From Parvibaculum sp. (GTDB lineage: Bacteria; Pseudomonadota; Alphaproteobacteria; Parvibaculales; Parvibaculaceae), in contig NZNS01000006.1 of NCBI GenBank assembly GCA_002694985.1, positions 264,605-328,604 on the forward strand: a stretch of DNA of 64,000 nt. The letters run 5' to 3'. The translations under genes and the position numbers were made by a program. Numbering within the stretch: position 1 is the stretch's first letter; each line of letters starts with the position of its first letter. A model generated the notes under the pieces. The model was not told the DNA's origin, did not search any database, and was given only the letters and a program-made list of their open reading frames with translations. Below, one piece after another: positions 1,341 to 44,274 of this stretch.

Positions 1341-1465
1341 GGCATAAACCGGGCCGACCGTCATCGAAACGTCATCAAACCGTTACATTAGAGATTTTCG
1401 GGGATAACCGGCCCTCGCGCGGCAAGACGATTTCCCCGCAATTTTCTCATGCCGGGGATAAACCG
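1341..1465 (+). repeat. Dispersed intergenic element, cluster A
   Basis: The gap between two convergent genes holds a degenerate GGGGATAAACCG block (1340-1351, here GGGCATAAACCG). Ten bases after its ATAA comes CCGTCATCGAAACGTCA, extended to a third CGTTA copy (1358-1385), so CGTCA-type units recur every 11 bases. Two more GGGGATAA blocks follow at 1400-1407 and 1454-1461. The same arrangement recurs at 36.9-37.2 and 39.5-39.7 kb. Confidence 0.7.
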
Positions 1466-7302: not shown

Positions 7303-8235
7303 ATGACTGCTCTCTGGAAACTCTCCTTCATCGTGCCCTATGAGGCTGCCGAAAATTTCTCCGACGCACTGGAAGCGGCAATCTGGCCCGATGTGCTTGC
7401 CGTCTCGATGACGGAAGCCGAGCCCGGCTCGTCGCCGCTGGTGAAAACGGCTTCCGAATGGAACGAGGTCGAGGCACATGGGGTGTGGCGCGTCGAGGCG
7501 CTTTATGCCGAGGAGCCGGAGGAAGATGCGCTGCACGAGATCGTGGCGCGCGCGGAGAAGGAAAGCGGGGCAAAGGCCGAGGGCTTCCGCATCGAGCCGA
7601 TGCCGGACGAGGACTGGGTGACACGCTCGCTGGAGGGGCTTGAGCCCGTGCGGGCCGGGCGCTTCTTCGTTTATGGCAGCCACGACGCGGACAAGGTGCC
7701 GGCAGGCGCGATCCCCCTTCTCGTCGATGCAGGACAGGCCTTCGGCACCGGCCACCACGAAACGACGGCGGGCTGCCTCGAATATATTTCCGAACTGGTG
7801 GGCACGGGTGTGCCCCTGAACGTGCTCGATATCGGCACGGGTACGGGCGTTCTCGCCATCGCGGTCGCGAAGCTCACCCGGGTGAACGTGCTCGCCTCCG
7901 ATATCGACCCCGTCGCCGTGACCGTGACCAGGGCCAATGCGAAGGCGAACGGCGTCGGCCCCTTCGTCACCGCGCTCCCCGCCAAGGGTTTCGGCAATCC
8001 GGGCCTGCGCACCCGCGCGCCCTATGACCTTATCCTCGCCAATATTCTGGCGCGGCCGCTCGTCTCGCTCGCGCCCGCCTTCCGCGCGCATCTGCGCCCC
8101 GGCGGCACGCTGATCCTGTCGGGCACGCTACGCACACAGGAACCGATGGTGACAAGCGCCATGCGCATGCAGGGCTTCAAACTGGTGTCGCGCAAGCCGA
8201 AGGGCGACTGGGTGACGCTGAGGATGGAAGGCTGA
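7303..8235 (+). CDS. prmA: Ribosomal protein L11 methyltransferase
   Basis: 310 residues. The N-terminal part is the PrmA substrate-recognition domain, which binds L11. It carries the conserved segment EDWVTRSLEGLEPVRAGRFFV. The catalytic class I SAM-binding domain shows DAGQAFGTGHHETTAGCLE (around 140-160), the glycine motif LDIGTGTGVLAIAVAKL (about 172), SDIDPVAV, and NILARPL in place of the NI(L/V)A motif that binds the methylated amine. PrmA trimethylates lysines and the N-terminus of ribosomal protein L11. It follows uvrD closely and is in turn followed by an aminopeptidase P gene on the same strand. Confidence 0.95.
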   Translation: MTALWKLSFIVPYEAAENFSDALEAAIWPDVLAVSMTEAEPGSSPLVKTASEWNEVEAHGVWRVEALYAEEPEEDALHEIVARAEKESGAKAEGFRIEPMPDEDWVTRSLEGLEPVRAGRFFVYGSHDADKVPAGAIPLLVDAGQAFGTGHHETTAGCLEYISELVGTGVPLNVLDIGTGTGVLAIAVAKLTRVNVLASDIDPVAVTVTRANAKANGVGPFVTALPAKGFGNPGLRTRAPYDLILANILARPLVSLAPAFRAHLRPGGTLILSGTLRTQEPMVTSAMRMQGFKLVSRKPKGDWVTLRMEG

Positions 8236-36071: not shown

Positions 36072-36538
36072 TGGCCGCCCCCGCCTTGTGCCGCGGGCGC
36101 TCGCAGCATGTCGCGATATTTCTGCGCGTCTTCCAGCGCCTTCGCGTAATAGGCGTCATAGGCTTTCGGCTCCCAGATCTGGAAGCGCTGCCCCATGCCG
36201 ACAAAGGTCGCCTCGTCGGTGATACCGGCAAGGTTACGGAGCGTCTCTGGCAGGATGACGCGTCCATCGGAATCGAAGCTCAGCTCCGCACTCTCGCCGA
36301 TCAGCACGGCGGAAAGAGCCTGGCGTTCCGGCGCGAAGGGGTCGAGCCGGTCGAGCATCTGGTCGATCACATCGGAGAAGGCAGGACCGCAGCCCTCGAC
36401 AAAGGAGCCGGGATTAAGCGGCGGAAACAGGATCACGCCGTTCAGGCCCTGGGCGATCGTCACGGCACGAAACTTCGCCGGGACGGAAACACGCCCCTTC
36501 GAGTCGATCTTGTTCGTGAAACGCCCCCGGAACGACAT
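36068..36538 (-). CDS. mraZ: Transcriptional regulator/DNA-binding protein MraZ
   Basis: 156 residues with two MraZ/SpoVT-AbrB-type half repeats. The first is FTNKIDSKGRVSVPAKFRAV (about 6-25) and the second is ELSFDSDGRVILPETLRNLAGI (about 84-105), each with the DxxGR signature. MraZ forms a multimeric ring and binds a set of short direct repeats upstream of its own gene to repress dcw transcription, as shown in E. coli. Matching repeats lie 98-142 bases upstream here. It is the first gene of the dcw operon. Confidence 0.96.
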   Translation of the reverse strand: MSFRGRFTNKIDSKGRVSVPAKFRAVTIAQGLNGVILFPPLNPGSFVEGCGPAFSDVIDQMLDRLDPFAPERQALSAVLIGESAELSFDSDGRVILPETLRNLAGITDEATFVGMGQRFQIWEPKAYDAYYAKALEDAQKYRDMLRAPAAQGGGGQ

Positions 36539-36635
36539 CGTCCGACCTACTCCCCTTTATCGGGCCTGCCCTCCTGCCTGAGGGGCCCATGTCCACGGGA
36601 CCGGCTGACACCATTCGGGGCAGCATGGCCTTCTA

Positions 36636-36680
36636 CGGGACATCATGGGATATCATGGGATATCATGGGCGTCAACGGGA
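36636..36680. promoter_or_regulatory. Predicted MraZ operator: phased TGGGN repeats
   Basis: On the plus strand, GGGA/GGGC recurs exactly every 10 bases, ending at 36640, 36650, 36660, 36670 and 36680. The three central units read ATGGGA-TATC-ATGGGA-TATC-ATGGGC, that is TGGGN separated by 5 bases. This is the spacing reported for the E. coli MraZ operator. The flanking units are CGGGA. It lies 98-142 bases upstream of the mraZ start, on the opposite strand. Confidence 0.8.
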
Positions 36681-36721
36681 AACCCCAGTAGTTTCGCGGT
36701 TTTACGCGGTATTCGGCAGCC

Positions 36722-36736
36722 TTAACAGGTCGTTAA
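36722..36736. promoter_or_regulatory. Candidate CtrA-binding site upstream of the dcw operon
   Basis: TTAA-N7-TTAA with exact spacing (TTAACAGGTCGTTAA), the consensus of the alphaproteobacterial cell-cycle regulator CtrA. On the minus strand a TTGACA hexamer (36744-36739) lies immediately upstream of it. I see no convincing -10 at standard distance, so the promoter itself is not placed. Confidence 0.6.
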
Positions 36737-36907
36737 AATTGTCAATATTGTGAGAACATAAGAAGAACAAGACATCTATTCTTCATATCGGGCAGCGCTC
36801 TCGAAACCCTTCCACCTCGCCGGTGCGCCTCCTTCGCCATCTTCCTGCGGCGCGCTCACGACGATCTTCCGGCTTGCTGGATATTGGCCGGACGAGAAGA
36901 AGTGAGC

Positions 36908-37218
36908 GGGGATAACCGGAAAAAAGCGAGTGGCGAGAGCTGTCCAGACCGGGATCCGGGCTCGGCAATTCGTCCAGAAACGGTCCTCCCGAAACGGAAC
37001 AGGTCTTCGCCCTGCCGCGAAATATGACGGTTTGGCTACATTTCGATGACAGTCGGGGCTGCTTATCCCCGCCCGGCGGAAAATCGCGGAAAATGACGGA
37101 CCACTCGGACGTTCTCGGGAAGATTGAACCCCCCTCGATGAAAAGCGGTTTAATCCCCGGCTTGTCCGATTGTGGCGTTCCGGTGACGTTTCGATGACGG
37201 TCGGAACGGTTTATCCCC
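36908..37218 (-). repeat. Dispersed intergenic element, cluster B (at least two full copies)
   Basis: On the minus strand, one copy starts with GGGGATAAACCG at 37218 and has CCGTCATCGAAACGTCA ten bases after the ATAA (to 37184). A second starts with GGGGATAAGCAG at 37070 and has CTGTCATCGAAATGT at the same distance, ending in CCGTCAT (to 37026). A degenerate copy (GGGGATTAAACCG then CATCGA) lies at 37158-37135, and a lone GGGGATAACCGG lies at 36908-36919 on the plus strand. The 700-bp stretch 36539-37242 holds no gene that I can support; it carries these repeats plus the mraZ control sites. Confidence 0.7.
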
Positions 37219-37242
37219 ACCCTGCTGGATATCCTGGAAAAA

Positions 37243-37624
<382 letters not shown>

Positions 37625-39498: not shown

Positions 39499-39730
39499 GG
39501 GGATAAGTAGCCCGTTTTCGGCCCGGCTATCATCAAAACGTCATTAAACCGTCATGCCATGCCAAACGAAGAAAACAGACCACTAGGAGAGGACGCGGGG
39601 CAGCACGGTTTTCGCCCCCTCCCCCGGCCCCATCTCCCGGAAACTTGTCCCCGTTCCGCTCCCGCGAGGAAGATATCCCCGGGGGGCCGCCGCCAACTGC
39701 CATCGAAACGTCACTCAACCGTCAAAAACG
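39499..39730 (+). repeat. Dispersed intergenic element, cluster C (two copies)
   Basis: Copy 1 has GGGGATAAG at 39499 and then CATCAAAACGTCATTAAAC with CCGTCAT (39531-39555). Copy 2 has CATCGAAACGTCACTCAAC with CCGTCA (39701-39725) and no clear GGGGATAA. Both lie in the 444-bp gap 39377-39820 upstream of the EamA transporter gene and downstream of the djlA-like gene. Apart from these repeats I see no gene in that gap. Confidence 0.7.
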
Positions 39731-39820
39731 CAGCCAGCCCCTTCTCGCGAGATCTTGTCCCCGGTTTTCACCGCAGTGCCGGCTTTACTCGATCAACACC
39801 TGGAAGTCCCGCGCGAATAC

Positions 39821-40656: not shown

Positions 40657-43600
40657 ATGAGCGAAATCAAACCGCATGAAAGCCGCTGGGACTTCTGGAT
40701 CGACCGGGGCGGCACCTTCACCGACATTATCGGCCGGGCGCCCGATGGCGGGCTGCATGCACGGAAATTCCTTTCCGAAAACCCCGAACACTATGAAGAC
40801 GCGGCCCTCTACGGCATCCGCGACCTGCTGGGCGTTCACCCCGATACGCCGCTCCCCGCCGGACGGATCGGTGCCGTGAAGATGGGGACGACGGTTGCGA
40901 CCAATGCCCTTCTGGAGCGCAAGGGCGACGCCACACTGCTGCTGACGACGCGCGGCTTCCGCGATGCGCTCGCCATCGGCTACCAGGCGCGCCCTCACCT
41001 CTTCCGCCTGAAGATCGAAAAGCCGGAACTGCTCTATGAGCGCGTGGCGGAGGTGACTGAGCGCGTGACGGCGGAGGGCGAAATCCTTGCTCCGCTCGAC
41101 CGCGAGGAGACCCGCCGCGCACTTGAAGAAGCCTATGAGGCAGGTATCCGCTCCGTCGCGATTTCCTTCCTGCATGGCTATCGCCATCCCGCGCATGAGG
41201 AAGCGGCAGGCGAAATCGCAAGGGAGATCGGCTTCACGCAAGTCTCGCTCGGCCATCGCGTGAGCCCGCTCATCAAATTCGTTTCGCGCGGCGATACGAC
41301 GGTTGTCGATGCATATCTCTCGCCGCTGTTACGCCGCTATGTGGACCGCGTGGCGGCAGCCATCGGCACGGACGACCCCGAGACGCGCCTCTTCTTCATG
41401 CAGTCATCCGGCGGCCTGACGGATGCGGCGATGTTTCAGGGCAAGGACGCGATCCTCTCCGGCCCCGCGGGCGGTATTGTCGGCGCTGCGGCAACGGCGA
41501 GCGAGGCGGGCTTCACCCGCGTAATCGGCTTCGACATGGGCGGCACCTCGACCGACGTGTCGCACTACAACGGCGAATACGAGCGCAGCTTCGAAACGGA
41601 AGTCGCAGGGGTGCGCATGCGTGTGCCGATGATGCGCATCCACACGGTTGCTGCGGGCGGCGGCTCCATTCTCCATCACAAGGACGGACGCTTTCAGGTC
41701 GGGCCGGACAGCGCAGGCGCGAACCCCGGCCCCGCCGCCTACCGGCGCGGCGGGCCGCTGACCGTGACGGACGCGAATGTGATGCTCGGAAAATTGCAGC
41801 CGGACCTCTTCCCGGCCGTCTTCGGTGCGGAGCAAAACGAACGCCTCGACGCAGAAACCGTGCGCCAGAAATTTGCAACTCTCGCCCGAGAGATCGGCGA
41901 CGGGCGCGGGGCGGAAGAGACCGCCGAAGGCTTCCTGCGCGTCGCAGTCGAGAACATGGCGAATGCCATCAAGAAGATTTCCGTCGAGCGCGGGCATAAC
42001 GTGACGGGCTACGCGCTTTCCTGCTTCGGCGGCGCGGGCGGCCAGCATGCCTGCCTCGTCGCCGATGCGCTCGGCATGACCACCGTTCACATCCATCCCT
42101 TCTCCGGACTTCTTTCCGCCTATGGCATGGGACTGGCGCGGATCGCCGCCTCGCGCGCCCGCGCGGTGACGAAGCCACTTGAAGAAGGACTGCGCGGCGA
42201 ACTGGACGAAGCCATTACGGTGCTTGGCCGCGAGGTAACGGCGGAACTGGAAGCTCAAGGCATCGCGGCGAGTGACATCGAGATAACGCCGCTGCTTCAC
42301 CTGCGCTACGAGGGAAGCGACACAACGCTTCAGGTTTCATTTGCTTCGCACGACATGAAAGAGGCAGCAGACGCATTCGAGACGGCGCACCGGGCGCAAT
42401 TCGGTTTCAGCTTCGAGGGCAAGGCGATTGTCGCCGAGGCCGTGGAAGTGACGGCAGAAGACCGGATCGCACGCGAGACGCCCTCAAAGGGGCCGCAGGC
42501 CGCGAGCGCAAGGCTGGAAGCAACGGATCGCCGCCCCGTCTTTACCGGAGGTGAATGGCGCGATGCCGCGATCCATCGCCGCGAGTGCTTGAGCGCGGGC
42601 CACGCCATTCCAGGCCCTGCCCTCATCATCGAGCCGAACCAGACCATCGTGGTGGAGCCCGGCTGGCAAGCCGAAGTGACGGAGGCGGATGACATCATCC
42701 TTCGCCGCGTGGTCGCGCTGCCGAAGCGGACGGTGATCGGCACGGATGCCGACCCGGTGATGCTCGAAATCTTCAACAACCGTTTCATGTCGATTGCCGA
42801 ACAAATGGGCGGCACGCTGCAAAACACCGCCTCCTCGGTGAACATCAAGGAGCGGCTGGACTTCTCCTGCGCGGTTTTCGATCCCGCAGGCGGGCTCGTC
42901 TCCAACGCCCCGCACATGCCGGTTCATCTCGGCTCCATGGGCGCGAGCGTCCGCGCGGTTATCGAACAGAACCCCGGCATGGGGCCCGGCGACGTCTATG
43001 TGCTGAACGCGCCCTATAATGGCGGCACACACCTCCCCGATGTGACGGTGGTGGCGCCCGTCTATGATGAAGACGGAAAGACGCGCCTCTTCTATGTCGC
43101 CGCGCGCGGCCACCACGCCGACATCGGCGGCATCTCGCCGGGCTCCATGCCCGCGCATTCGCGCAACGTCGAGGAAGAAGGCGTATTGATCGACAATTTC
43201 CGGCTTGTCGCTGGCGGTCGCTTCCTCGAAACGGAAATGCGCGCGCTCCTGACGGGCGGCAGATACCCCTCGCGCAACCCGGACCAGAACATCGCCGACC
43301 TGCGCGCACAAGTGGCCGCCTGCCACAAGGGCGCGGAGGAACTGCGCCGGATGGTGGCGGAATTCGGCCTCGATGTCGTGACCGCCTATATGACCCATGT
43401 GCAGGACAATGCGGAAGAGAATGTCCGCCGCGTGATCGATCGGCTGAAAGACGCGACCTGCGAACGCAAGATGGATGACGGCTCGGTTATCCGTGTCGCC
43501 ATCCGCATCGACCGCGAAGCACGCAGCGCGAGGATCGACTTCACGGGCACGAGCCCGGAACTTGCTAGCAATCTCAACGCGCCTTCCGCCGTTGCGCGCG

Positions 43601-44274
43601 CGGCAGTGCTCTATGTCTTCCGCTGCATGGTGGATGACGACATTCCGCTGAACGAGGGATGCCTCAAGCCCATCGAGATCACGATCCCGGAAGGCTCGAT
43701 GCTCGCGCCGCGCTATCCCGCAGCGGTAGTCGGCGGCAATGTGGAGACGAGCCAGGCGGTGACCGACGCGCTCTTCAGCGCCTTGGGTGCCATGGCCTCT
43801 GCGCAGGGCACGATGAACAACCTCACCTTCGGCAATGAGCGCTACCAGTATTACGAGACGATCGCAGGCGGCGCGGGCGCAGGCCCGGACTTCGACGGTG
43901 CCGACGCCGTGCAGACGCATATGACGAATTCGCGGCTGACGGACCCCGAAGTGCTCGAATGGCGCTTCCCGGTGTTGCTGGAGGAGTTTTCCATTCGCGG
44001 CGGTTCGGGCGGCAAGGGAAAACATAATGGCGGCAACGGCGCGCTGCGCGCGATCCGCTTCCGCGAGAAGATGAGCCTTTCCATTCTCTCCACGCATCGC
44101 ATCGTCGCGCCCGCCGGTCTTGACGGCGGCGACGACGGCGCAACGGGCGAAAACGAAGTGCGGCGCGCTGACGGCGAGGTCAAGCAGCTTGCCGGTTCTG
44201 CCACGGCGGAACTTGAGCCGGGCGACGTCGTCATCGTCAGGACGCCAGGCGGCGGCGGATACGGAAAGCCCTGA
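40657..44274 (+). CDS. 5-oxoprolinase (ATP-hydrolysing), fused HyuA-HyuB type
   Basis: 1205 residues from the ATG at 40657 ([14 protein letters not shown]); an upstream in-frame ATG adds 18 residues unlike the family. The N-terminal half is a hydantoinase A/acetone carboxylase-like ATPase with [46 protein letters not shown] and [14 protein letters not shown]. The second half is hydantoinase B, with [42 protein letters not shown] text, [16 protein letters not shown], and a C-terminal GGGGYGKP. The fusion and length match eukaryotic-type OPLAH, which opens 5-oxoproline to glutamate with ATP and closes the gamma-glutamyl cycle. Hydantoinase activity cannot be excluded from sequence alone. A quinone oxidoreductase gene follows 63 bases later. 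Confidence 0.9.

Follow-up and report, generated by a model that had tools for sequence, protein, structure and literature searches.

What kind of element recurs between the genes of this chromosomal region, and what keeps it where it is? The window, i.e. the whole stretch of 64,000 nucleotides of a Parvibaculum sp. genome that was analysed, had been described in a sequence-only reading as containing a dispersed element in which two short blocks keep a fixed distance. Here, we follow these blocks from the window to the whole genome, to other members of the genus and to the class Alphaproteobacteria.

Results

Anatomy and copy number of the sites

In the window, the distance from ATAA in the first block to CYGTCATC in the second is exactly 10 bases in three copies (1340-1374 on the plus strand; 37218-37184 and 37070-37036 on the minus strand), as had been claimed. 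The second block, of which at least five copies had been counted, has six matches at ≤3 mismatches versus 0.38 expected, one of which, at 7398, falls inside a predicted gene and is probably a chance match. The first block, with about eight copies proposed, has nine matches at ≤2 mismatches versus 3.4 expected, a number equalled by one of 100 shuffles, and two of the nine lie inside predicted genes and are chance-like. The excess of the second block extends genome-wide, with 107 matches at ≤3 mismatches versus two for the reversed control and 62 versus none at ≤2 mismatches. The first block had to be redefined: the 12-mer in which it had been written, GGGGATAAACCG, is not a repeat and was rejected as a family (two exact copies in the 3.42-Mb genome, both within the window), and the real unit is GGGGAYAA.

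The core is a 36-bp, Pho-box-like site with three direct YGTCAY half-sites at an 11-bp period. In 30 aligned copies GTCA is invariant or nearly so at offsets 2, 13 and 24 (CGACYGTCATCGAAACGTCAYNAAACCGTCACAAA), and no column other than those of the core and of the phased GGGG is strongly conserved. A 37-position, sequence-only profile, with which 150 of the 2187 candidates from a first look were scored, possibly at the cost of a few weak copies, gives at least 70 matches in this genome (G000) at E≤10 and at least 65 at E<0.1. The genome scan returns about 65 copies, mostly intergenic and present in related genomes.

GGGGAYAA is both enriched and phased around the core. The noncoding DNA surrounding 62 sites (15.1 kb) contains it 113 times and intergenic DNA elsewhere (67.9 kb) 18 times; the motif is therefore about 25 times denser near the sites, in a count in which one motif between neighbouring sites can enter twice. 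At ≤1 mismatch, it lies at offset -18 or -19 in 31 of the 63 sites used for phasing and at -28 or -29, one helical turn further, in 18; the fixed 10-base spacing thus stands for the former and is a helical turn longer in the latter. Together these offsets are occupied in 49 of 63 sites, compared with a mean of 0.26 and a maximum of 3 in 300 shuffles. The inverted motif is found at +40 in 20 of 63 sites, and 56 of 63 have at least one phased motif in either orientation. No hairpin common to the sites was seen by eye in the 10 of about 65 that were folded (z from -0.3 to -3.2, mixed).

The half-site equals the published Pho box, described as two 7-nt CTGTCAT direct repeats with a 4-nt spacer, i.e. 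an 11-bp period (PMC3131613). Similar half-sites with the same period are present in the pst promoters of the genus, and this genome encodes PhoB together with a PhoR-like kinase adjoining pst. From this match to the published box and from the likeness to the species' own pst promoter, we infer that a PhoB-type protein, PhoB or a relative, may read the triple repeat.

Table 1. Core sites, GGGGAYAA-type motifs and the RNase P RNA gene in the window
Feature	Position	Strand	Remark
GGGCATAA	1340..1347	+	one mismatch to GGGGAYAA; offset -18 from first half-site
Core site 1, CGACCGTCATCGAAACGTCATCAAACCGTTACATTA	1355..1390	+	three half-sites at 11-bp steps; gap of convergent predicted genes
GGGGATAA satellite motif	1400..1407	+	
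GGGGATAA satellite motif	1454..1461	+	
GGGGATAA satellite motif	36908..36915	+	
Core site 3, degenerate	37020..37055	-	second half-site altered; profile 19 bits
GGGGATAA	37063..37070	-	offset -18 of core site 3
GGGGATTA, variant satellite motif	37151..37158	-	
Core site 2	37168..37203	-	about 40 bp beyond RNase P RNA 3' end
GGGGATAA	37211..37218	-	offset -18 of core site 2
RNase P RNA gene	37241-37623	-	
GGGGATAA	39499..39506	+	offset -28 of core site 4
Core site 4	39524..39559	+	flanked by EamA-type and TerB/DnaJ genes
GGGGACAA satellite motif	39645..39652	-	
Core site 5	39694..39729	+	
GGGGACAA satellite motif	39755..39762	-	

Gene context and polarity

Rfam searches of the window at gathering scores identified RNase P and tRNA alone and no RNA family at the sites. 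At 40657-44274, hydantoinase A and B domains of the 5-oxoprolinase type share one reading frame, an ordinary arrangement.

The element had been placed only between genes. With gene ends predicted by a home-made hexamer gene finder, this is so for 57 of 65 copies (22 in convergent, 30 in tandem and five in divergent gaps), and the other eight lie within predicted genes. The data support a real two-block family that occurs in either orientation and mostly between genes. One of the genic copies lies in a citrate-synthase-like coding sequence (C7:436406-436439) and has counterparts in G017 and G014, which suggests that the site is tolerated or selected inside coding DNA.

The intergenic sites favor the 3' ends of genes. 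Of the 57, 39 lie closest to a 3' end and 18 closest to a 5' end; flanking ends, tested with the 62-site set, are 3' ends in 74 of 112 cases versus 300 of 674 in sampled gaps (Fisher P = 7e-7), and convergent gaps hold 22 of 57 sites but make up 52 of 337 sampled gaps (P = 1.6e-6). Because of these preferences, and because some sites fill gaps of 25-64 bp, arrays of bound protein could be pictured as roadblock terminators or insulators that halt transcription beyond gene ends. The near absence of terminator-like sequences in the two window regions scanned beside sites 1-3 (one weak terminator-like site near 1485, none at 36500-37260) is in keeping with this proposal, but some 65 sites would serve thousands of genes, a regular spacing would be unexpected, and the folded sites share no hairpin, so that we give it only a very slim chance.

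The sites are also polar with respect to their neighbors. The gap to the preceding gene is shorter than that to the following gene in 42 of 57 sites (P = 5e-4), and the same holds for 11 of 19 G014 sites and for 19 of 23 sites of G001 and G018 pooled; noncoding DNA is thereby left downstream of the sites. Such polarity is also expected if the sites are promoters or have another directional function. We therefore considered that they are hidden Pho-type promoters, from which PhoB would drive small RNAs or antisense transcripts into the noncoding stretch; the identity of the half-site with the Pho box, its resemblance to the pst promoter and the presence of PhoB also speak for this. In each of three species examined, TAGCGT lies at offset 48 of the pst promoter as a -10-like element; in the dispersed sites (62-site set), TAGCGT with two mismatches is found at this offset in two of 62 (background 1.3) and TATAAT-like hexamers in at most seven of 62 at any single downstream offset, leaving no fixed -10 element. 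Moreover, tandem-gap sites point with the genes in 15 cases and against them in 15, only five of the 57 intergenic sites lie between divergent genes, the downstream flank is no better conserved than the upstream flank (this genome versus G017), site-poor genomes retain a Pho-type box at pst, and promoters do not explain the spacing described below. In sum, we regard hidden promoters as distinctly unlikely.

The only sigma-70 promoter-like sites at 36500-37260 lie at 36637-36751, distant from the core sites. Upstream of mraZ, at 36645-36661 on the minus strand, TCCCAT units follow each other about 10 bp apart; they are present in many congeners and are, we assume, MraZ-box-like.

Spacing along the chromosome

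The sites are more evenly spaced than random positions. In this genome the spacing CV is 0.54 (63 sites) versus 0.92 for random sets, none of 5000 of which was as low, and it remains 0.54 without the two weakest sites (0 of 10000). The CV is 0.61 in G014 (64 sites; random 0.98; 0 of 20000), 0.58 in G001 (64 sites; 0 of 20000) and, among the matches listed, 0.53 in G017 (55 sites on 13 contigs; 0 of 10000) and 0.57, 0.48 and 0.51 on three contigs of G018 (P = 0.005, 0.003 and 0.019), with random values of 0.89-0.98 across genomes; the tests in the five genomes are not independent, as many positions are common by descent. The mean gap is 46 kb in this genome (median 42 kb), and for G017, G001 and G014 it is 56, 57 and 61 kb, respectively; among the matches listed, it is 42-49 kb in G018. 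Taken alone, the window's own contig, C3, is not significantly regular (CV 0.78, P = 0.29). Random draws of intergenic gaps in G002 gave a CV of 0.82 versus 0.83 for uniform positions, and intergenic placement alone therefore does not yield regularity.

For these tests, sites less than 600 bp apart were merged in this genome and G014 as well as in G001 and G018. The set for this genome includes the weak C3:118871 (E 0.38) and C7:113841 and omits C12:163538. Matches dropped by eye, being coding-like, odd or overlapping, were five in G014 (194213, 1897907, 2379239, 3563954 and the overlapping 490229), two in G001 plus overlaps, three in G018 and several in G017. The first G017 test used 47 sites without the smaller contigs, and the 55-site repeat takes all contigs with at least two listed sites.

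The largest gap in G014 is at most 172 kb (origin and terminus were not located, the GC skew of 20 G014 samples being weak). Strand clustering, as a sign of replication polarity, was considered and rejected, as neighbors share a strand no more than by chance (P = 0.13); one run of 13 same-strand sites occurs in G014 (shuffle P = 0.014). Most sites genome-wide are single; a strong outward-facing pair, C3:68678(-) and C3:73048(+), is 4.3 kb apart, and the window pairs near 301.7 and 304.2 kb are likewise outward-facing.

Over-regular spacing together with a gene-end preference could be a relic of transposition: with target immunity, insertions of an ancient element at gene ends would have been kept tens of kb apart, and the element would since have died or disappeared. 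Consistent with such scars, GGGGAYAA upstream and TTRTCCCC downstream resemble short inverted ends in some copies, and the gene ends at the FAD-oxidase locus, judged by eye, are less than about 20 bp apart in the outgroup G019 and the site-poor G002 and further apart in carriers, where the gap contains a site.

Conservation between species

A counterpart in G017 was found for 57 of 63 sites, and orientation is the same in all 57. In this matching, stretches were picked around G017 sites with a tolerance of up to 1.2 kb, two low-score sites (15.6 and 15.2 bits) were omitted, and each of the pairs near 301.7 and 304.2 kb corresponds to a single locus in G017. In G014, 13 of 21 sites match sites of this genome, 12 with the same orientation; in G001, 11 of 15 match, one of them loosely, and 10 have the same orientation; and in G018, 10 of 15 match, all with the same orientation.

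Several congeners have core site 2 at the same place and in the same orientation. At the RNase P locus, a site lies just beyond the RNA end in G000, G017, G024, G008, G014, G011, G018 and G026, a decayed-looking site is present in G025, G001, G023 and G013, and no site is found in G002 or in the nine outgroup genomes read; the locus is unreadable in G005, G009, G010 and G012. Near the site downstream of the FAD oxidase, a separate and apparently unrelated intergenic palindromic repeat (CCCGGCGAAAGCCGGG-type) is present in some congeners.

In the comparison of this genome with G017, identity is 88-100% for the GTCA bases and 90-100% for six core positions, T, A or C adjoining GTCA, versus 40-79% at most other core positions and 58-77% in the flanks, core identity being inflated by the choice of G017 sites with the profile. 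Satellite motifs at the same site differ between the two genomes in several pairs. The version of the core varies by species and is fairly uniform within one: GTCATCGAAACGTCA in this genome, GTCATCGAACTGTCA in G014 and GTCATCGATCTGTCAAAAAACTGTCA in G001, and, in many of 15 G018 sites read, GTCACAAAACTGTCATAAAACTGTCA preceded by a C tract. The RNase P site of G026 also has a C run directly before the first half-site, like many G018 sites, as might follow from an altered contact of the reader complex.

The aligned copies (n = 30) share little outside the two motifs, and their places and orientation are kept across species; the notion of a dispersed repeat element is therefore not supported. Because positions and orientation are the same across species and the half-site bases are the best kept, conserved protein-binding sites fit better than spreading repeats. 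The same observations, namely the scarcity of common sequence, the 57 of 63 positions retained with identical orientation, the best conservation in the half-sites, the differing satellite motifs at the same site and the species-specific cores at common positions, also speak against scars of target immunity, as does the lack of an exact match in viral contigs to one strict site pattern. We consider such scars unlikely.

Species-specific versions at common positions are, on the other hand, what a signal for DNA transfer or uptake would show, with one site per fragment-sized stretch and each species' version homogenized by biased recombination. Uptake sequences have dialects, and even spacing and gene-end placement would suit such a signal. 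Uptake sequences, however, number about one per kb and are thus far denser than one site per ~50 kb, and three half-sites with a phased second motif resemble the target of a multi-protein complex. To us, a transfer signal is therefore very improbable.

Distribution and loss

Among 27 members of the genus (one mismatch allowed), 14 carry 58-84 triple boxes, with 0-6 for controls; 20 were counted in G010 (74% complete) and 2-7 in the remaining 12 members, including G022 with six at 88% completeness. Class-wide (385 genomes, exact matches), the two sampled carriers have 49 each and the remaining 383 have 0-3. A search of GTDB genomes with an exact pattern matched four stretches, from two Parvibaculum MAGs and Rhodobiaceae bacterium UBA7804.

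The site-poor G002 is nested among carriers in two gene trees: in that of the FAD oxidase, with G012, with support of 98/98, and in that of rsmH with 99/97, the wider rsmH group having 88/92. Both trees are midpoint-rooted and differ in the exact place of G002; the nesting suggests that G002 lost the site set. In 390 kb of G002, there is no triple box at the 10 sites of this genome (eight gaps) for which both flanks could be mapped, one of the mapped gaps holding a GTCA pair and another a single GGGGAYAA, and GGGGAYAA is at background (seven versus six for the control).

At pst, by contrast with the dispersed sites, a Pho-type box is kept in the site-poor G002, G012, G019, G015 and G020, so that PhoB alone is not sufficient to account for the set. 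As GGGGAYAA drops to background in the absence of the boxes even though the pst box persists, we infer that a clade-specific partner may read GGGGAYAA, a natural missing piece of the system. In a comparison of 614 predicted proteins from part of this genome with 390 kb of G002, four genes in shared synteny had no good G002 match, one of them just under threshold; judged by look, none of the four is a DNA-binding candidate for the partner gene.

The last pst half-site is CTGTCG in G018, G026, G013 and G001 and CCGTCG in nine other carriers read, and the dispersed sites of G018 and G001 use CTGTCA, with the same T as their pst. This common T, a matter of few changes, suggests that one reader may serve both pst and the dispersed sites.

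Discussion

Given the phased motifs, the shared positions, the contact-like bases that are best kept, the drift between species and the joint absence of both motifs in G002, the site set behaves as one trans-dependent system of putative protein-binding sites. Combining these data, we tentatively suggest, well aware that the balance of probability is slightly against this reading, that this genome carries about 65 conserved composite docking sites that would organize the chromosome and would not be promoters: (i) a PhoB-type winged-helix protein would bind the three half-sites spaced by 11 bp, (ii) a candidate partner would bind the phased GGGGAYAA together with the PhoB-type protein, and (iii) the resulting complexes, at shared and mostly intergenic places every 42-61 kb on average, would act as docking points for the organization of the chromosome. 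The organizing role is proposed because of the regular spacing, the lack of a pst-type -10 element and the equal numbers of sites with and against tandem genes. Among the functions that fit, docking best explains the regular spacing together with the indifference to gene strand.

A more specific form of the docking proposal is that the sites constitute a ruler of the chromosome: a two-protein docking site about every 50 kb at fixed places, mostly gene ends, kept by selection, built from exapted half-sites of the Pho box and lost together with the clade-specific partner. We put it forward as a possibility about which considerable doubt is appropriate.

The type strain P. lavamentivorans DS-1 carries the site set, and binding and chromosome folding can thus be tested in a cultured strain. 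Should the sites be scars of target immunity after all, they would form an unusually well preserved record of it; should they be promoters, they would represent a large hidden set of phosphate-controlled transcripts. No description of such sites was found in the available parts of the open-licence literature on Parvibaculum (with the DS-1 genome paper, PMC3368416, among it), Pho boxes, nucleoid and nucleoid occlusion, and target immunity.

REP/BIME and MITE repeats are intergenic, occur in both orientations and prefer gene ends. The sites described here share all three properties. Unlike these repeats, they have little repeat body, no defined repeat unit with ends and no common hairpin (10 folded sites), their positions are common across species, and conservation is highest in the half-sites.

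The likeness to the Pho box lies in the direct repeats with an 11-bp period; the sites differ from it by a third unit and a phased second motif, by their location mostly at gene ends, by the lack of a pst-type -10 element, by their approximately 65 regular copies and by their absence from a relative that keeps its pst box. In E. coli, many PhoB sites away from promoters are transcriptionally inert, mostly intragenic and not conserved (PMC10294691), whereas most of the sites described here lie between genes, and they are evenly spaced and retained across species. Among nucleoid-occlusion sites, the Noc binding sites (NBS) of Bacillus subtilis number about 70 sequence-specific and palindromic copies, dispersed over most of the chromosome and absent from the terminus (PMC4331003); the SlmA binding sites (SBS) are commoner near the origin (PMC4117426). 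As with the NBS, tens of sequence-specific sites are dispersed over the chromosome here, but they combine three direct repeats with a further motif, and G014 has no gap larger than 172 kb. Bacteria couple chromosome and cell cycle through tens of dispersed sites, but we know of no described set that is equally even, joins the box of a transcription factor to a second, phased motif and is gained and lost as one system within a genus.
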